From the IMG/VR virus record IMGVR_UViG_3300022891_000005, positions 1 through 44,307 of that record: DNA of 44,307 bases; one strand, given 5' to 3'. The DNA is from a virus. Below the pieces are notes generated by a model. The model did no database searches. It had not been told where the DNA came from and saw only the letters and a list, made by a program, of their open reading frames with translations. The position numbers and the translations under genes are program-made. Shown piece by piece: positions 2,530 to 39,306 of the stretch (its first letter is position 1; every line of letters starts with the position of its first letter).

Positions 2530-3015
2530 TCACGCGAGCGTGGGCGCCCACGAGAAATCAGCCGCATCGCCCACGCGGTAGACGTTCAGCGTGCACGGCG
2601 CCGTGCCGGACGCGCCGATGGATACCGTGTAGCCGGCCGTTCCGTTCATGGTCAGGCATAGCGCCGCGGCGACGGCGCTGCCGCCGACCTGGAAGTAGCC
2701 GGTGTAGTGCGTGCCGTGCACGGCGCCGGTGGCGATCAGGGTGCGCCATCCGTCCAACTGCTGCCCGCCAGTGTTCGTCTTGCGCACCCGGAACAACGGC
2801 GAGTTGGTCCCGGTGGATACCGAGGCGGGACCGGTCGCGATGAACTTGTACGCCGTGTTCGCCTCGTAGGTGGCTGAGCCGATCGTCAGCACGGCAAGCT
2901 CGGTCGTGCCGACGGTAGGGCCGGCCGAGCCGGTGAGCGCGCCGCCGGCCACCCAGCGGACGCGGTCGTACTCGTCGAGGTCGGTGGGGTAGACGATGTC
3001 TCCGACGGCAACCAT
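2530..3015 (-). CDS. putative minor tail/structural protein
   Basis: Encodes 161 aa rich in G, T, A and V with alternating beta-strand patterning and few charges, typical of a phage beta-sandwich virion protein. The ATG at 3015 shares one base with the stop of the large tail gene (TGATG), which decides the start over an in-frame ATG at 3039. It lies between the main tail protein and the lysis genes, where minor tail and receptor-binding accessory proteins usually sit. The function is inferred from position. Confidence 0.6.
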   Translation of the reverse strand: MVAVGDIVYPTDLDEYDRVRWVAGGALTGSAGPTVGTTELAVLTIGSATYEANTAYKFIATGPASVSTGTNSPLFRVRKTNTGGQQLDGWRTLIATGAVHGTHYTGYFQVGGSAVAAALCLTMNGTAGYTVSIGASGTAPCTLNVYRVGDAADFSWAPTLA

Positions 3016-5834
3016 CAGGGCCTCGCTCTCATGCCCCATCGGGCGGGTAGGAATATCTGGATCGGCTCGCCGGCGTCGAGCGACTTCACGATCCCGTTCA
3101 CGCTGCGCGTGACCGTGGCCGTCTGGTCATACGGGCCGGATCCGCTCACCGAGCCCATGCTGGTCACGGTGATCAGCTCACCGGCGATGAGCACTGAGTA
3201 CGGCTCGGCCGTGGTGCCCCAATGCTCCCGGACGTCCGAGGAGGAGAAGGTCAGGGAGGTGGCCGTCGAGTTGACACCGGTTTTCAGTGTCGTATATTTC
3301 GCGCCGTAACGCCGTGCAGACAGCCCGTAGACGCCGGTGAGGTAAGGCCCGTATGGCGTCAGGTTGAAGTCGATCGTGCGCGTGATGTTGGAGATCATCT
3401 CCGTGTAGCCGCGCACGATCTCCGTCGTCACCGTCGGCCCCCCGGCGTACACCGGCAGGTTCGACAGGATGAACGGCCGGCCGAGATCCAGCCAGGCAGC
3501 ATCGTCGACGGTCACCTCGGAGCGGTGCAGTTCGAGCGTGGCTACCGAGAACCGGAGTTCGTCCCACGTCCCCAGGAGCACCTCGCGCTGTGCAAGAGGG
3601 ATGAGTTGTCTATCCTCGCTCGCGTTGCGCGGGATGGAGACGTCGAACAGGCCAACGCCGTCGGGATCGTCCTCCCTCGGGTTGACGTTGTTCGGGCCTT
3701 CCTCCTTGACCCATCGGCCGAAGGAGCCGTCAGCGCGCGTGATCGTCACGTCGTTGCGGATGTCCCGGTTCTCCCGCGGTCGCAGCGAGCCGGAGAAGAC
3801 GTGAGCCGCGTAGTCCAGCGTGGGCCCGGAGCGGTTGAGCAGGGAGTAGTACGAACGGATCGCGAGACCGAGCTTGTCCCGCGGCGCGTGCAGGATGCCG
3901 CCGTCGATGTCCGCGCACTCCTGGAACAGGTCCATCGGGAACAGCAATCCCTGCGCCCCCATCGTCGGCGTCTGATCCTCACCGTCGATGGAGTCCGGAC
4001 CGATCCACCAGAACGGGATACCTAGCTCGGCGGCCAGCCGCATGGCGCGGTCGCGGGCGTTCTCGCCGACGTAGCCGTTCGTGCTCATGGTGAAGTCGGC
4101 GCCGGTGAATTCGAGATCTTCGCGCGAGAGCGCGACGTGGGCGATCTGGAGGTCGCTCTTGCCGGTGAACGGCCAGGAGATCCAGGACGAAGCGCGCCCG
4201 GACGTGCCGGCGAACGATCCCGTCATGCCGTACAGTACCGGCGCGCCGACCGCGTACCAGCCCCACTCGAAGTTGACGTTTTGGTCCATGAGTAGCCGCA
4301 TGGCGATCCACTGATTCGGCTCGGCGCCGGCCCCGAACGATGCGTTCGAGAAGAACAGCGAGGTGCCGTTACGGTCGAACAGCTCCATGGAGTAGTTCGT
4401 GGTGGAGACGTTGAAGGTCGCCTTGTAGACGGTGCCGCCCCGGTAGTAGATGGAGAAGATCTCCCGGTTGGCCGCGGGGATGGCATCGAACTTGAAGTAG
4501 AACAGCGCGAAACTCTGCGCGCTCACCGCGCCGGTCGTGACGGCCACGCCGGACGCGTACCCGTCATCGTCGGTGAAGCCGAGCGCGCCGGCCGAGCCGG
4601 GCAGATCAGGCGCGGTGCCGAACGCCGCGGACTTCATGTAGCCGGTCTTGCCGACATAGGCACCGATCGTGGTGGCGCCCAGGTCGCTCTCCATCGGCCA
4701 GTACCCATCCATGGCATACCGGGTGAGGTTGCGATAGATCGGCGAGCGCAGCGGCTTCTGGCCGGACATCAGGCGCTCAGCCACCGAGGATGCGCTGATG
4801 TTGACTACGACGTCCGTGCCGGTCGTGTCCCACTCTGAGGGAAACTCGGGGATTTCACCATGAAACCGGTAGTCCGCGTCGGTGATCTCCGCGCTCGCCG
4901 CGAGGGCCCAGGTATTCGGCGAGGCGAGGCCGTCGGACCAGGAGGTGGTACCGGACGCCTGCGCCGTCGCGTCCATCCGTGCGACCACCGTGCCGGCGAT
5001 GCCGTTGCGCAGCTCGAACGAATAGATCCTGCCCGTGAACGGATCGGCGTTGAAGGAGGTGGCGAAGATGCCACGACCTCCGGCGTTACCGGTCGTGCCG
5101 ACTTCAAGCGGCGCGTTCGAGGCGAAGATGCTGGTGGTACCGGTGGTGCCGGTGATCGTGGAGCCGAGCTGCGTCCAGGTGCCGTTGATCGAGGTGGACG
5201 TGTAGAAGGTGAGCGCGTACTGGCCGGCGCCGTTGTTGACGTCCAGCGTTGCGCGGAACGCCTGCCGGCCGCGGCCGGCGATGGTGGCTGTACTGCGCTG
5301 CACGATGCGGCCGCTCACTGCGCCGTTCGTGGACCAGATGAGCATCAGGTAGCCGTGCTGGTCCGTGCAGAAGGCCCATGCTCGCTGATCCACGCTGATG
5401 ACGTACTTGCCGGCCAGGACGTGGCCGAGCCGGCCGTACCAGTCGTCCGCCTCAGCGTCGATGCGGATATCGATGTCACCGGTGATATCGAGGCTGGCCT
5501 TGTCCGCGGTCCACGCGCGGGCCCCGTCGTAGTCGCGGGTGCCCGGTGTGTTCGTATCGGTGAGCCGCAGGCTGGTCCCGGCCTGCGTGATCGAACACCG
5601 GTATGGCGTGTAGAGGCCAAGGAGGCGGTAGTACGGGGACAGCGGGTTGCGGTTGGAGTAGCGGCCGTCCAGGTTGTCCAGGTAGAAGGAGGCGACGTCA
5701 GAGGCGATGTTCGCCTGCTCCGCCGAGGAGCCGCGGGTGATCCGGACGTCGCGACCGAGGCCACGCGTGTCGGAGGTGACCGCGGTCCATGCACCATCGA
5801 TCTTGATCTCTTGCTTGATCGCCTGAAGCGCCAT
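3015..5834 (-). CDS. large minor tail/baseplate-type protein
   Basis: Encodes 939 aa, directly after the tape measure and overlapping its stop by one base (TGATG). That overlap fixes ATG 5834 (MALQAIKQEIKIDG) and rules out the longer in-frame extension. The N-terminus resembles tail-hub proteins. Residues about 120-330 and 410-600 have repeated beta patterns with aromatic and Gly residues of the concanavalin/LamG type, suggesting carbohydrate contact. The C-terminus carries an IAGELITVTSMG...VTRSVNG module also seen in the connector at 10784-11818. The likely role is the tail tip, with glycan or receptor binding. Domain limits are estimates by eye. Confidence 0.8.
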   Translation of the reverse strand: MALQAIKQEIKIDGAWTAVTSDTRGLGRDVRITRGSSAEQANIASDVASFYLDNLDGRYSNRNPLSPYYRLLGLYTPYRCSITQAGTSLRLTDTNTPGTRDYDGARAWTADKASLDITGDIDIRIDAEADDWYGRLGHVLAGKYVISVDQRAWAFCTDQHGYLMLIWSTNGAVSGRIVQRSTATIAGRGRQAFRATLDVNNGAGQYALTFYTSTSINGTWTQLGSTITGTTGTTSIFASNAPLEVGTTGNAGGRGIFATSFNADPFTGRIYSFELRNGIAGTVVARMDATAQASGTTSWSDGLASPNTWALAASAEITDADYRFHGEIPEFPSEWDTTGTDVVVNISASSVAERLMSGQKPLRSPIYRNLTRYAMDGYWPMESDLGATTIGAYVGKTGYMKSAAFGTAPDLPGSAGALGFTDDDGYASGVAVTTGAVSAQSFALFYFKFDAIPAANREIFSIYYRGGTVYKATFNVSTTNYSMELFDRNGTSLFFSNASFGAGAEPNQWIAMRLLMDQNVNFEWGWYAVGAPVLYGMTGSFAGTSGRASSWISWPFTGKSDLQIAHVALSREDLEFTGADFTMSTNGYVGENARDRAMRLAAELGIPFWWIGPDSIDGEDQTPTMGAQGLLFPMDLFQECADIDGGILHAPRDKLGLAIRSYYSLLNRSGPTLDYAAHVFSGSLRPRENRDIRNDVTITRADGSFGRWVKEEGPNNVNPREDDPDGVGLFDVSIPRNASEDRQLIPLAQREVLLGTWDELRFSVATLELHRSEVTVDDAAWLDLGRPFILSNLPVYAGGPTVTTEIVRGYTEMISNITRTIDFNLTPYGPYLTGVYGLSARRYGAKYTTLKTGVNSTATSLTFSSSDVREHWGTTAEPYSVLIAGELITVTSMGSVSGSGPYDQTATVTRSVNGIVKSLDAGEPIQIFLPARWGMRARP

Positions 5835-14034: not shown

Positions 14035-14067
14035 ACCGGGGATCCTGCCTTCAACAGGATCCCCGGT
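14035..14067 (-). terminator. hairpin between decoration genes
   Basis: A perfect 13-bp inverted repeat (ACCGGGGATCCTG and its complement) has a 7-base loop and no T tract. It follows the stop at 14070 and precedes the SD of the 14017 gene, so it may attenuate transcription to set protein ratios. Confidence 0.7.
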
Positions 14068-20651: not shown

Positions 20652-22019
20652 TCAACTCTTCATGAACCGCACGCGCGGGCGCGGCTGGACGTCGATCTCC
20701 ATCAGCGCATAGCGCATCTGGTCCATGCCGTCGTCCTCGTCCTTCATGGGCTCGTCCTTGCCCTTGTCGTTCCAGACGTAGCCGGGAATCTCCGCGACCG
20801 TGGAGGTCGGCTTCTTGGCCTCCTCCGCTTCGAGGTCGCGCACGATCCCGGCGTCGCGGAAGAACTTCAGGCGCGCACGGCCGCGGGCGTCGGGGCGGAA
20901 GCGTGAGGCTGTGACCTGAAGGCCATCCTTCACGCTCTTGTTCGCCGGCCGGGTGGGCTGGCCGATGTGGCGTTCAAGTGTGGCCCGGTCCTCAGCGTCG
21001 TGATCGCAGATGATGATGGATGGTCTCTTGGCCTGCCATCCGGTGACAGGCTCACCCTCATACGGCAGGATGCGCCCGGTCTCCGGATCGACCGGCCCCC
21101 AGCCGCAATGCGCACGGATCATGCGCGCGTGGTCTTCCACGAGGACTTTCGTCTTGTGGATCTCGTTGACCAGGATCGCCTCACCGTCGGGAGCGACCGC
21201 CCAATCGCCCCAGACGAACGGGTGCACGAATCCGAAGTCCACACTCCAGATGCGGCGCCAGTCCTCGGGGATCTCGAACCGGTCGACCACGTGCAGCGCC
21301 GGGTTGAAGTCTTCGTAGATGACGCCTTCGGCTGCTGCCCAGATGCCCTTGCGCAGGCGCAGGTAGCGCACGCCGGTGAGCGAGTCGAGCTTCTCCATGT
21401 AGTTGCGGCCGGCCTCGGTCATGGAGCCGTCCTCGTTGAAGTAGCGCGGGTTGTCCTCGTGACGCGAGTGCAGCATCAACGTCTTACCGGCCTCGCAGCG
21501 CAGCTTCAGCCAGTGCGTGGGCTCCTGTGGATTGCAGTCCATGATGATCTGCGAGAAGGAGATGGCGCCGTTGCGCAGGCGGGACACGCACGCTTCGAGA
21601 TCCTCGACCTCGATCTCGGTGGCTTCCTGGATGTAGATCACGTCGTACTCGGTGGACATGACCTTCATCGGGTTGTCCATGCCGCCGATGGCGATGCGTG
21701 AGCCGTTGGAGTAGCGGTAGCTCGGAGGTTCGCGCCGGTTGCCGCCGAAGAAGCTGACGGTGCCATCGAGCAGGGCTTGCACGGCTACGTGCTTTTCGTA
21801 CGTCTCGATGCCCGAGGTGGTGAGCGAGACGGCGGTCTTGCGCAGCATGAGCGCGCGCACGTTGGGCGTGAGCAGGCAGATGTAGTGCAGCTTCTCCAGC
21901 GCGGCGCGGCTCTTGCCGGTGCCGGCCGGGCCGGCGAGCAGCACTTCACCCCCGCGGTACCGCATTGCTTCTGCCGCGGCGCCCCGGGGGCGGAAGTGAT
22001 GGACGAGGGCGGTGGTCAC
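20652..22019 (-). CDS. terL: terminase large subunit
   Basis: Encodes 455 aa from GTG 22019 in a GTGA overlap. The ATPase domain has Walker A GPAGTGKS (30-37) and Walker B YDVIYIQEATE with E132. The RNase H-like nuclease has D261 in SVDFGF, Asp residues in IIICDHDAED (339-344), and D430/D433 in DDGMDQMRYAL. It pumps DNA into the prohead and cuts the concatemer. With no cos-type signal evident, and a genome that closes on itself, headful packaging is possible. Confidence 0.95.
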   Translation of the reverse strand: MTTALVHHFRPRGAAAEAMRYRGGEVLLAGPAGTGKSRAALEKLHYICLLTPNVRALMLRKTAVSLTTSGIETYEKHVAVQALLDGTVSFFGGNRREPPSYRYSNGSRIAIGGMDNPMKVMSTEYDVIYIQEATEIEVEDLEACVSRLRNGAISFSQIIMDCNPQEPTHWLKLRCEAGKTLMLHSRHEDNPRYFNEDGSMTEAGRNYMEKLDSLTGVRYLRLRKGIWAAAEGVIYEDFNPALHVVDRFEIPEDWRRIWSVDFGFVHPFVWGDWAVAPDGEAILVNEIHKTKVLVEDHARMIRAHCGWGPVDPETGRILPYEGEPVTGWQAKRPSIIICDHDAEDRATLERHIGQPTRPANKSVKDGLQVTASRFRPDARGRARLKFFRDAGIVRDLEAEEAKKPTSTVAEIPGYVWNDKGKDEPMKDEDDGMDQMRYALMEIDVQPRPRVRFMKS

Positions 22020-24668: not shown

Positions 24669-24697
24669 ACTATGCCTCAGTAAGGCAGGAAAAGCAA
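24669..24697 (-). promoter_or_regulatory. CATAGT promoter, leaderless (gene at 24662)
   Basis: TTGCTT, 17-bp spacer, CATAGT, AGAGTA, ATG. It lies inside the 3' end of the preceding gene and is the weakest -10 of the family with 43550. Confidence 0.65.
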
Positions 24698-25185
24698 TCC
24701 ACCACGTCACGGTTATCGACCATGCGGTAGCGCTTCAGGCCCTGCGGAGGGTTGCAGGCGGGCCGCTCCCCTGCCCGGAGGTGCACCGGCGCCGGCAGGA
24801 CCCGCACGCGCACGATGGAGGGCGCCACGTGCCTGCTGACGGCAACCACGAGGCCGGTCCGGATCGCCTCATGGACGATCTTCGCGAGGCCGGTCCGCCG
24901 CAGTGGTGAGCCGGCCGGCGCCGTCCAACCGGTATGGCCGCCCTGAACGACCTCAGTACCCATCTCCAAGGCGCGTATGAGGCGACTGATCTCCAGATCG
25001 GTGACGCCGTTCTCGAACGGCGCGCTGTCCGGCTGGATGTGTGCCACGGCGCGCTCCACGGCGCGTGTAGGGGTCTCGGAATCGGCCAGGCGAGCGCGGC
25101 ACGCCGGCAGGTGCCGCGCGACGTTGCCGACCTCGCGCGTGCAGGAAGGGCAGGTACCGGCCTGCGGTCCGTATGGGTGCATCAT
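24670..25185 (-). CDS. Zn-finger protein beside the iteron region
   Basis: Encodes 171 aa. The N-terminal CPSCTREVGNVARHLPAC is a C2HC-type finger, with a helical middle (LEISRLIRALEMGTEVV, then TGLAKIVHEAIRTGLVV) and a C-terminal DCFSC. The ATG is six bases after a TATAGT -10 whose -35 overlaps an iteron, so the gene may be controlled by whatever binds the iterons, possibly itself. Candidate origin-binding or regulatory protein; no family match is claimed. Confidence 0.7.
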   Translation of the reverse strand: MMHPYGPQAGTCPSCTREVGNVARHLPACRARLADSETPTRAVERAVAHIQPDSAPFENGVTDLEISRLIRALEMGTEVVQGGHTGWTAPAGSPLRRTGLAKIVHEAIRTGLVVAVSRHVAPSIVRVRVLPAPVHLRAGERPACNPPQGLKRYRMVDNRDVVDCFSCLTEA

Positions 25186-25191
25186 AGCTCA

Positions 25192-25220
25192 ACTATAGCA
25201 GACGGGCCGTAGATGTGCAG
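25192..25220 (-). promoter_or_regulatory. TATAGT promoter, leaderless, -35 in an iteron
   Basis: CTGCAC, 17-bp spacer, TATAGT, TGAGCT, ATG. The -35 lies within the iteron-like TGTGCAGGAT at 25214-25223. Confidence 0.75.
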
Positions 25221-25487
25221 GATCGGCCAGGGGAGCCTGCACATGATGTTTTCCCTGCTCAGGGGCCGTTTTTCGAGCAAGTGTGCAGGGTTGTGCAGGG
25301 TATTTCCCTACTCGGTTCTTACATTGAGAAAACCCCTTACTCCCTGGAGCCCTTTTATATATACGTACTTTTACCTTGCACATCTTGCACAAGAGAGTAA
25401 ATAAGGGGGGTGAGCTGCAAAAACGGGTGTGCAGGGTACCGATCGGTACCCTGCACACACCCTGCACCGCAGGCCAGACCCTGCACA
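25214..25487. other. iteron and A+T-rich region, candidate replication origin
   Basis: There is no credible gene in 25186-25491. The 10-mer TGTGCAGGGT occurs exactly at 25282, 25292 (tandem), 25428, and inverted at 25448 and 25478. Variants lie at 25214, 25235, 25376, 25385 and 25459. Between the iteron groups, 25351-25377 is strikingly A+T-rich (TTTTATATATACGTACTTTT) for this genome. The block abuts the stop of the primase-helicase gene, the architecture of an iteron replicon. Confidence 0.75.
25427..25458. repeat. 32-bp perfect palindrome containing two inverted iterons
   Basis: The arms read GTGTGCAGGGTACCGA and its exact complement with no spacer. Each arm includes a complete TGTGCAGGGT. 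It could be a dimer-binding site or a cruciform, or it could terminate primase mRNA. Confidence 0.85.
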
Positions 25488-25491
25488 CCTC

Positions 25492-27828
25492 TCAAATGGC
25501 GTCTGACCCGATGCCGTGCAAGACGGTCACGAACTTCCCCTCACTGCGTGTCCGCTTTGAGGTGAGGCCGTCCACCTTCTGCCGAAGATCCCGACTAAAG
25601 ATCTCTTTGGTAGTCGTGTCCCTTGTGCGGCCTTCGCCCTCGCACCAGTTCCGGTATTTGAGGTATAGGTGATCAAGGTCAATCGCCTGTTTCGGATCGA
25701 CCGTGCACCAGTCCTCGATGAAGGCGCCGATCGGGTCCGCGAGCCGGCGCGTAGCCTCCGCCTCGCCGCGCCCGCTCTCAGGCTGAGTGAAGCGACCGCG
25801 CTCATCGAGCCGGTCGAGTCCGTCCAGGGCCCAGTTCAGGATGCCGCTCAATTCCCCCATCAGCTTCTCGGTCAGGGCAGTGTCCTCGCGGCCGTAGAAC
25901 GACTGCTTGAACGCGACGTAGAGCATGCGGTCAACCAAAGCGCCGGACCGGTCGGAGAAGGTGGGCGTGTCGTTGCTCATGAGCATGAAGCGCACCCCGA
26001 GGCGGCCCTTCCATGCGGCCTTGTTCTTGCGGTGAACCGTGACGTGGTCCTCGCCCGAGATCTCCAGCATCACCTGGACGGCATCACCGATATTGCGCGA
26101 GTGCCAGCGCACATCCGAAGCCACGGCCAATGCGGAGCCCACGAACGGCTCAAGGCCGAAGGTGCCGCCGATAAGGCCGAGGTTGAGTCCGGAGACATTG
26201 TCCTTGCCCACCAAGGCCGTCAGGACACGGGCGATCGTGCCCTTGCCGGAACGCTTCTTGCCGATCAGGGCAGCCATCTTCTGCTGATCCGTGCGGCCGC
26301 TCAGGACGTACCCGAACCACTCTCCGAGGAAGTCCTGCGCCTGGCCGTCGTCCGGGAGCACCTGATCAAGGAAGCCCTGCCAGTTCGGGCACCGTGCATC
26401 AGGGTTGTAGTCGAACGGCAGGCTGAACAGATTGAAGCGGCGCGGCGTGTGCGCCAGCAACTCCCGCCGGACCACGACACCGTTGGCCGCGGCCAGGGCT
26501 CGATCCTCCTCGCCGAGATGCTGCAACTCCGCCACGGCGAGCGCATCCATGACGTTCGCGATCTTCTGCTTCGTGGGAGCCCACGGGTTACGCTCCGGCG
26601 CATCCCCCGCCTTCTTGGCCGCGGTCAGGTAAACGGCGTCGCCGGTCTGCTGATACAGCCAGCGCCGGACGATCGGGTCCGGCTCCACCTCCCAGTGCGC
26701 GCCTGTCCACCGATAGAAATCGTCCTGCCACCACATCAGGTGCGGCACACCGTCACTAGCAGGGATCAGCGTCTTCAGTGCACGCGCGACCTTGAGCGGT
26801 TGCCCTGGGGGCGCGAGGATCGCCAGGCCGGGAGTCTCGTCCGCCTGCAACCGGGCAGGCTCGACGATCTCGGCCATCCACTGGCCCTGCCGTTCGGCAT
26901 CCGCACGCGACCGCTCGATCGTGCTCAGCGTGTCCTCGTCGAGGACGTCCCAGCCTTCCGCCGGCCAGCGCTCGCGCCCGAGTCGCGACACCTCGGCCCG
27001 GACGTCACCGGCCTCGATCACCGCGCTGTAGTGCCAGCTCTCGAACGCCAGGTCCCGGACAGCGTTATTGCGGTTGCCCTGGACGAACTTCTCACCGAAG
27101 CGCGCGCAGGCGCGCCGCCATGCGTCTCGGACTTGCTCCTCGGTCATCAGGTGATCCGAGACGGCATCGTCGAAGAGGTCATCGTCGACCGCGACCGCGG
27201 GCATCTTCAGCGAGCGCAGGAACGCGACCCATTCCGCGGGGAGCTGGGGGACCTCCTGTGTGGCGACGGGGACCTTGCACCGCTCGCCGGCCTCGTTGTA
27301 CCAGAGGTACTCGTTGCCGCTCGGGTGGATGCTCGGTGCCACGATCGCGTACCGGTGCCCGTAGTGGAGTAGATCGAGCTTGTCTCCGTAGCGCTCGCGG
27401 AGAACGCCCTCGATCCGGGAAAGATCAAGATCGGTAGGAATGCGGTAGAAACGGTGCCGGCGTGCGCTGTCCGCGCCGTGACTGGTGGAGTAGGGCCCCG
27501 CCGGCAGGGCTACGCCCACCTGCTGCTCCACCTGGCCGAGGACGTCGGCTCCCTCCAACCCGTCGATATCGAACGCGATAAGGAACTTCGGTAGTCGAAT
27601 CGCGATGTTGAGGTTTCCGCGCTGGCCGGACCAGACGGTGAGCTGATCGTGACCGACCTTCTTGCCCTCGCGACCGGTGTAGCCGGCCGGAACAGGCTTC
27701 TTCTGCTTCGGCGCGGTGCCGACCGGGATGGGATTTTCCCAGCCGCGCCGCCAATAGACCTGCGCTCCTCTGGCGTAAGGAGCGGCCAAACCACTACCAC
27801 TGGTAGGATTCGTCAAGACAGTCTCCAT
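25492..27828 (-). CDS. prim-pol / D5-type primase-helicase
   Basis: Encodes 778 aa. Residues about 10-205 are an archaeo-eukaryotic prim-pol domain with FDID (86-89), STSHG..SARRHRFYR, and VAPSIHPSG. A linker leads to a D5_N-like region (about 335-500) and an SF3 helicase with Walker A GKKRSGKGT (523-531) and a FMLMSNDTPTF segment. The C-terminus is winged-helix-like. It should unwind the origin and prime replication, as in P4-type and AICE/plasmid replicons. No SD is visible before ATG 27828. Confidence 0.9.
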   Translation of the reverse strand: METVLTNPTSGSGLAAPYARGAQVYWRRGWENPIPVGTAPKQKKPVPAGYTGREGKKVGHDQLTVWSGQRGNLNIAIRLPKFLIAFDIDGLEGADVLGQVEQQVGVALPAGPYSTSHGADSARRHRFYRIPTDLDLSRIEGVLRERYGDKLDLLHYGHRYAIVAPSIHPSGNEYLWYNEAGERCKVPVATQEVPQLPAEWVAFLRSLKMPAVAVDDDLFDDAVSDHLMTEEQVRDAWRRACARFGEKFVQGNRNNAVRDLAFESWHYSAVIEAGDVRAEVSRLGRERWPAEGWDVLDEDTLSTIERSRADAERQGQWMAEIVEPARLQADETPGLAILAPPGQPLKVARALKTLIPASDGVPHLMWWQDDFYRWTGAHWEVEPDPIVRRWLYQQTGDAVYLTAAKKAGDAPERNPWAPTKQKIANVMDALAVAELQHLGEEDRALAAANGVVVRRELLAHTPRRFNLFSLPFDYNPDARCPNWQGFLDQVLPDDGQAQDFLGEWFGYVLSGRTDQQKMAALIGKKRSGKGTIARVLTALVGKDNVSGLNLGLIGGTFGLEPFVGSALAVASDVRWHSRNIGDAVQVMLEISGEDHVTVHRKNKAAWKGRLGVRFMLMSNDTPTFSDRSGALVDRMLYVAFKQSFYGREDTALTEKLMGELSGILNWALDGLDRLDERGRFTQPESGRGEAEATRRLADPIGAFIEDWCTVDPKQAIDLDHLYLKYRNWCEGEGRTRDTTTKEIFSRDLRQKVDGLTSKRTRSEGKFVTVLHGIGSDAI

Positions 27829-39093: not shown

Positions 39094-39306
39094 ATGGCAA
39101 AGCTGATGCTGATCGGCTCAGTCGCCCAGGTCGAGTTGACCAGCGACTCGCTCGAAGGTCAAGTATTCGCCACCTGCGTGATACATCCCGCCTTCAGGCG
39201 GGAGTACGGCGGACTCTGCTCCTGGGCAGCGCGCTATGACGACATGAACGACGCGACCGGGTACGCCGCGGATCACGCGGACACAGGAAGGCAGGATGCA
39301 TCGTGA
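39094..39306 (+). CDS. small protein, unknown
   Basis: Encodes 70 aa with the ATG immediately after the previous stop, so it depends on coupling. It is beta-rich then acidic (KLMLIGSVAQVELTSDSLEG; YDDMNDATGYAADHAD). No family is recognised. Confidence 0.66.
   Translation: MAKLMLIGSVAQVELTSDSLEGQVFATCVIHPAFRREYGGLCSWAARYDDMNDATGYAADHADTGRQDAS

Follow-up and report, generated by a model that had tools for sequence, protein, structure and literature searches.

The initiators of SaPI and SCC elements bind, by means of their C-terminal domain, iterons situated directly behind their own gene (as set out in the relevant part of PMC7581432). The alpha protein of phage P4 unites in a single polypeptide a Toprim-type primase, a helicase and a winged helix that binds the origin at repeats, while in pRN1 a terminator hairpin precedes a further stem-loop, which is the essential one (both from the passages of PMC4234260 on these replicons). 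In pRN1, and likewise in phage BIP-1, the available descriptions place an essential element, a large stem-loop without iterons, directly behind a gene for a protein with prim-pol, SF3 helicase and winged helix. For actinobacterial phages of the type considered here, literature searches turned up no origin that has been mapped.

We have analysed a stretch of viral DNA of 44,307 bases (an IMG/VR virus record, hereafter the window), in which a gap of 306 bases, 25186-25491, occupies exactly the space between the gene for a 171-aa protein and that for a primase-helicase. In our judgement this gap is very probably the replication origin of the phage and the adjoining primase-helicase its initiator, which would sit on the iterons with a winged helix and be loaded at a core pair of sites. 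The features of the region are as follows.

24670-25185, minus strand: 171-aa protein with a CxxC...H...C motif; a neighbour, unlikely to read the iterons (motif, comparison among loci)
25186-25491, no strand: proposed replication origin, the entire gap (iterons, A+T tract, conserved place behind the helicase)
25192-25202, minus strand: extended -10, TCTGCTATAGT, of the 171-aa gene; ATG 6 nt later, probably leaderless (promoter scan)
25214-25223, plus strand: outer far-arm iteron, TGTGCAGGAT (one-mismatch scan)
25234-25243, minus strand: outer far-arm iteron, TGTGCAGGCT (one-mismatch scan)
25249-25261, plus strand: Box B copy 2, TTTTCCCTGCTCA, inverted (11 of 13 positions; 0 of 200 shuffles)
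25282-25291, plus strand: far-arm iteron, 10 bp from the following one (exact copy)
25292-25301, plus strand: far-arm iteron (exact copy)
25353-25375, no strand: A+T-rich tract, probable unwinding element (GC minimum of the record)
25373-25382, minus strand: core iteron b, TGTGCAAGGT, 9 bp from core iteron a (one-mismatch and register scans)
25382-25391, minus strand: core iteron a, TGTGCAAGAT (register scan)
25411-25423, minus strand: Box B copy 1, TTTTTGCAGCTCA (12 of 13 positions; 0 of 200 shuffles)
25427-25458, minus strand: 32-bp palindrome, then CCGTTTTT; probable intrinsic terminator of the primase gene (fold z -4.4, paired changes)
25428-25437, plus strand: iteron 4, inside a palindrome arm (exact copy)
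25448-25457, minus strand: iteron 3, inside a palindrome arm (exact copy)
25459-25468, minus strand: iteron 2, GGTGCAGGGT (one-mismatch scan)
25478-25487, minus strand: iteron 1, TGTGCAGGGT (exact copy)
25492-27828, minus strand: Prim-Pol and D5-type SF3 helicase with C-terminal winged helix, 778 aa, proposed initiator (Pfam, structure model)

The arrangement recalls SaPI Rep-ori and SCCmec Cch2-ori: the window likewise has a gene for a D5/SF3-type helicase, iterons directly downstream of it and a C-terminal DNA-binding fold, here a predicted one. It departs from those systems, as far as they are described in PMC7581432, in belonging to phages of actinobacterial type and in having a fused primase, a ten-site mirror register, a conserved 13-bp site (Box B) and a terminator hairpin. 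Unlike the P4 protein, the primase is of the Prim-Pol type (PF09250). The likeness to pRN1 and BIP-1 lies in the domain order and in the place directly behind the gene; the core of the window's gap consists of iterons and an A+T tract, unlike their iteron-free stem-loop, and its hairpin resembles a terminator. A noncoding origin of about 300 bp is also found in Streptococcus thermophilus phage Sfi21, whose ori measures 302 bp (PMC6356513, in the part describing it), in a different host and with a different sequence. We think the locus best read as an origin of the SaPI/P4 working type, built on iterons and served by a D5-type initiator of its own; the mirror register, the turnover of iterons and Box B are its new elements.

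The preliminary description of this DNA had singled out the gap for its iterons, A+T-rich tract and 32-bp palindrome, and counting bore out all three. Exact copies of TGTGCAGGGT occur five times in the whole record, each time within the gap, and the reversed control pattern is absent. Allowing up to one mismatch raises the count to 13 in the 44,307 bases, against 2.5 expected and a largest count of 6 in 100 shuffles; nine of these matches fall within the gap, and TGTGCAAGAT at 25382-25391 brings its total to ten iterons, five exact and five variant. P4 has a second, distant iteron cluster, crr; none of the kind was found in the window, where the other four one-mismatch matches are scattered outside the gap. 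The lowest GC content of the record also falls inside the gap, at 0.15, 0.35, 0.40 and 0.45 for windows of 20, 60, 100 and 150 bp, respectively. The GC-skew analysis that had been suggested as a check lent the origin no support: skew at fourfold sites is practically the same on the left (0.109) and on the right (0.112) of the gap. Cumulative skew, with a maximum near 22-25 kb, largely tracks gene direction, and we treat it as neutral. BLASTN comparison of the gap with phage records gave nothing useful. A protein encoded across the gap was also considered and rejected; a 99-aa ORF (25189-25488) is open in the window, and the primase-sense frames are broken by stops in eight other phage gaps.

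When positions are counted from the base after the helicase stop codon, with > and < for orientation, the sites of the window form a mirror-like register. The first iteron begins 4 bp past the stop codon, and the near arm reads 5>, 24>, 35>, 55<, followed by Box B at 69>, the core pair at 101> and 110>, and the A+T tract. Beyond the tract lie iterons at 191< and 201<, Box B at 231< and iterons at 249> and 269<. An eleventh scan site, 231>, has two mismatches, overlaps Box B and was left out of the iteron count.

Protein, profile and DNA-pattern scans yielded the related loci L006, L007, L011, L013, L016, L018 and L019, and three more, L041, L042 and L045, emerged when the C-terminal domain was used as the query. 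L011 was initially detected through the core DNA pattern and recovered independently by protein search. Near-duplicates (L017, L019, L043 and L044) were removed from the set of distinct loci, and L010, a chance match without a helicase gene, was dropped. Helicase identity to the window is 77-87% in L006, L007, L011 and L013, 63% in L016 and 53% in the Dactylosporangium loci L018 and L019. Four contigs, those of the window, L006, L007 and L011, measure 43.5-44.3 kb and show one gene order in circular permutation, which makes it probable that each is a complete genome. The GC content and the Dactylosporangium relatives lead us to infer an actinobacterial host.

An iteron array lies directly behind a D5/SF3 helicase gene in nine distinct phage loci, one chromosomal pair and three plasmid records, a position common to 13 distinct replicons. 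The strongest 7-mer cluster of a locus sits at the helicase stop in all nine loci compared (six distinct viral contigs including the window, L017 and two Dactylosporangium loci), and three further distinct phages agree. The phage gaps contain 7-16 iteron sites each, against shuffle means of 0.1-1.4 and a shuffle maximum of 6. The register (about 5>, 24>, 35>, 55<, core 101>, 110>, then inverted sites) is closely followed in the window, L006, L011, L013 and L016, the last four having a near-identical layout of left arm and core. It is mostly kept in L007, L041 and L042 and less so in L045, which has the 9-bp core pair with a different left arm. The iteron unit itself switches among the phages from TGTGCAGGGT to GTTGCAGGGT, TGTGCCGGGT or CTGTCCCAGAT while the register stays; L042, for example, keeps the first four sites and the 9-bp core pair (1>, 20>, 31>, 52<, 86>, 95>) with the different unit CTGTCCCAGAT. 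At the level of sequence, the architecture, its conservation and its link to the helicase gene are established.

A similar layout was also found in independent replicons. In the circular 16.3-kb Streptomyces plasmid NZ_CP108186.1 (L050), the helicase is 38% identical over 98% of the query. An iteron-free hairpin stands behind its gene, outside the array, and is followed by eleven exact TGTTCAGGG sites, arranged as 79>, 89>, 100>, 111>, a Box B-like site at 145> and the core at 177> and 186>, then on the far side 262<, 271<, a Box B-like site at 300<, and 328<, 338<, 349<. This mirrors the window in the 9-bp distance within the core pair and in the Box B-like site 32 bp ahead of the core. The gene next to the array is an integrase, and the fetched stretch holds no terminase. 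A comparable array is present in the Pseudonocardia record NZ_CP053567.1, together with a terminase gene. Among 13 remote D5 loci (eight phages and five plasmids) only four (Mycobacterium phage Madruga, L050, L051 and L052) have such a cluster, at most about 500 bp downstream of the gene; L048 and L049, remote as well, have no iteron array. The Marinobacter phage-plasmid phiTHAF39 (L052) has a comparable array too, with an iteron pair 8 bp apart (4293-4309) that abuts a 40-bp stretch of 7% GC; no Box B was found in this gammaproteobacterial array behind a D5 helicase gene. In phage Madruga (L025, 5393-5653) GTTTCAG occurs seven times, accompanied by a Box B, behind the primase gene and near the genome end.

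The primase-helicase matches the Pfam families Prim-Pol (PF09250, 5e-18), D5_N (3e-9), DUF5906 (2e-11) and Pox_D5 (4e-6). In the PDB it has a single match by sequence, 7ola (E 4e-18), which we take to be a SaPI5 protein. The C-terminal 99 residues (680-778) are predicted to form a winged helix (pLDDT 82); in a 448-residue model the helicase part was poor (mean pLDDT 53). The top VIA-align matches of the winged-helix model are RFX DNA-binding domains (Z 11.1 for RFX5, and 10.9). The origin-binding domain of P4 (1ka8) comes next, with Z 8.9 and an rmsd of 2.4 over 76 residues, a likeness in fold to the P4 origin binder in which the RFX domains score higher. Among the relatives, identity to the window is 11-30% in the N-terminal half of the protein, 53-87% in the helicase and 40-86% in the C-terminal domain. 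The divergence of the one half and the conservation of the other parts suggest that helicase, winged helix and origin stay together. In the close relatives L006 and L011 the N-terminal, primase half of the protein (26839-27828 in the window) is swapped for largely unrelated sequence, the helicase half being 77-87% identical.

Within the predicted winged helix, the wing (residues 755-774) varies most among phages whose repeats differ and is likely to be the part that reads the iterons. We compared it in seven phages whose pairwise helicase identities are 83-91%. Where both members of a pair have TGTGCAGGGT (six pairs), their wings are 85-90% identical; for the remaining fifteen pairs the figure is 45-75%. 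A partial Mantel analysis of wing against iteron class gave r 0.42-0.50 and p 0.03-0.06, compared with p 0.10-0.32 for the remainder of the winged helix. The association is weak after allowing for divergence and no more than suggestive, since the four TGTGCAGGGT phages are also closest to one another in the helicase, if by a small margin (0.021 vs 0.252 for the wing), and since L007 and L045 share an iteron unit, yet have wings merely 60% identical. Of the two iteron readers considered in the preliminary description, the primase-helicase is favoured by the layout in the relatives and in the Streptomyces plasmid and by its predicted C-terminal winged helix. Having the proposed reader and its sites side by side, the pair could change or move as a single cassette, and a portable origin may be defined as the last part of the helicase gene with about 300 bp behind it. 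The natural iteron classes, at least six, offer a direct test series for a protein-DNA recognition code.

Taken with the equal place and layout in relatives and in the Streptomyces plasmid, these data support the earlier proposal of a replication origin beside its initiator. In such an origin the winged helix of the primase-helicase would bind the iterons of both arms. The core iterons, a pair with a spacing of 9 bp, would seed a helicase ring beside the A+T-rich tract, probably as two rings facing each other. The tract would then melt and the helicase load onto the single strands. The fused primase would lay the first primers, after which a host polymerase probably takes over, since none of the window genes scanned proved to encode a replicative DNA polymerase. 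The hairpin would end the primase transcript ahead of the origin, and Box B may assist through a further factor, probably of the host.

The repeats could instead be operators through which the neighbouring 171-aa zinc protein or another phage regulator controls both the leaderless promoter (25192-25202) and the operon of the primase, with replication starting elsewhere. We regard this as unlikely. The iterons do adjoin a conserved promoter element, as an extended -10 of the form TCTGCTATAST is present in eight of the nine phage gaps, and inverted paired sites would suit a dimeric repressor. In seven of those eight gaps the ATG stands exactly 6 nt past the -10, which suggests that the transcript of the neighbouring gene is leaderless. 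The window also has the promoter-like TGCACA-16-TATAGT with its -35 within the iteron at 25214-25223 (one found in the region, 0.6 expected), the overlap from which autoregulation had been proposed. That overlap exists in the window; it is not conserved, however, as the last iteron stands anywhere from 13 to 42 bp from the -10 in eight loci while the extended -10 is constant. Nor does the iteron sequence follow the finger of the supposed regulator: the L013 homologue of the 171-aa protein lacks the N-terminal CxxC finger with iterons unchanged, the L042 homologue has the finger with entirely different iterons, and in L016 and L018 iterons are present and the adjoining gene is another one. This independent variation speaks against the earlier suggestion that the product of the neighbouring gene reads the iterons. 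The array moreover remains with the helicase gene in L050, beside the integrase, and operators would have no obvious use for an A+T-rich core.

The hairpin was the next candidate for the essential element, the primase-helicase assembling there as in pRN1 and BIP-1 and the iterons being secondary. The palindrome is perfect, with 16-bp arms and no spacer, and a hairpin on the primase-sense strand folds in all nine phage gaps (z -3.7 to -9.4). Four of 14 pairs are altered on both sides among four aligned sequences, L007 being excluded from the alignment. A stem-loop behind the primase-helicase gene is, moreover, required in pRN1 (PMC4234260, in the section concerned). In the phages, however, a T-run follows the hairpin within a few nucleotides in eight of nine cases (4-5 T in seven, just 3 T in L016), and in L045 there are 4 T about 20 nt later. 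This resembles an intrinsic terminator, and the terminator-like hairpin at the equivalent place in pRN1 is dispensable according to the same section of PMC4234260. The L050 hairpin is free of iterons and lies outside the array. The inverted repeat of the far arm, tried as a mirror copy of the hairpin, gave z of -0.4 to -1.3 or positive values in four of four cases, not clearly better than shuffles. A hairpin origin therefore seems to us quite improbable. The palindrome, described earlier as an origin element, is probably the terminator of the primase gene, which is the simpler reading; a second role is possible. The window contains five perfect hairpins with arms of at least 12 bp, this one among them, where 20 simulated sequences had a mean of 0.15 raw matches. 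The other four, with arms of 13-21 bp, are at 14035-14067, 39911-39946, 40779-40814 and 41247-41289, more than simulated, and the relatives carry similar ones.

That the gap is a packaging (pac or cos) or other structural site is scarcely credible. In its favour, the gene for the terminase large subunit lies 3 kb away (20652-22019) and the four circularly permuted contigs imply a packaging start somewhere; but the array lies behind the helicase gene in 13 distinct replicons, among them the plasmid record L050, whose fetched stretch has an integrase and no terminase.

We return to the reading of the gap as an origin and to its Box B sites (consensus TTTTCGCAGSTCA), which flank the core and are retained in sequence while the iterons turn over. 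Sense-side sites matching in at least 11 of 13 positions occur in all nine phage gaps, equalled by at most 5 of 200 shuffles; in L042 the top copy, at 217, is away from the hairpin. Four gaps (window, L007, L016, L041) have an inverted partner with 11 of 13 matches; the partners in L006, L011, L013, L042 and L045 are weaker and do not rise clearly above chance. The 13-mer was not found in the literature on either strand, and papers sharing an 11-mer part of it are unrelated by title.

Box B is not confined to phages and plasmids. TTTTCGCAGSTCA occurs in 126 of 296 genomes of the class, at 150 or more places, compared with 8 matches of the reversed control. Seven of 30 sampled chromosomal sites read CTGGGGATAAC-N-TTTTCGCAG, and the combined pattern was present in 9 of the 296 genomes (control 0). 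In L072 (1501-1513) a Box B, TTTTCGCAGGTCAG, stands between dnaA and dnaN, beside DnaA-box-like sites. At least four such sites lie no more than 800 bp from Box B in 4 of 37 cases, and a second copy of the 8-mer is found within 250 bp at 11 of 37 Box B sites vs 50 of 707 random positions. A tRNA gene adjoins Box B in 3 of 30 loci; most of the other chromosomal sites are unexplained. As a general marker of chromosomal iteron clusters Box B was rejected, a cluster score of at least 8 being reached by none of 30 sampled sites and by 5 of 600 random ones.

As a motif Box B is real; it occurs in some actinobacterial oriC regions as well as in these phage origins and is not specific to origins. We put forward more tentatively, as a possibility that may well prove wrong, that it is common to actinobacterial phage and plasmid origins and part of the chromosomal oriCs as a docking or bending site for a host replication factor. 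On this reading its place is beside the pair of initiator sites that adjoins the unwinding tract. Because Box B stays while initiator and iterons turn over, it would be the site of a host factor that foreign replicons must recruit, and its presence in the dnaA-dnaN interval of some actinobacteria points to a host factor common to chromosome and parasite origins.

In two Dactylosporangium chromosomes, two of seven Box B sites fall in iteron clusters (L055, about 2826-3175, and L056, about 2901-3250), with CGGAGAT repeated 12 times and GGTACGG-like units, respectively. Ahead of the L055 cluster are a Prim-Pol gene and an ORF of 599 aa that matches no Pfam family; a weak integrase match comes after it. 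Elsewhere in the window, 39296-40543 (plus strand) and 41297-43114 (minus strand) show weak matches to DUF2637 and FtsK/TrwB-like proteins, genes typical of actinobacterial conjugative elements; a DUF2637 gene is also carried by plasmid L050.
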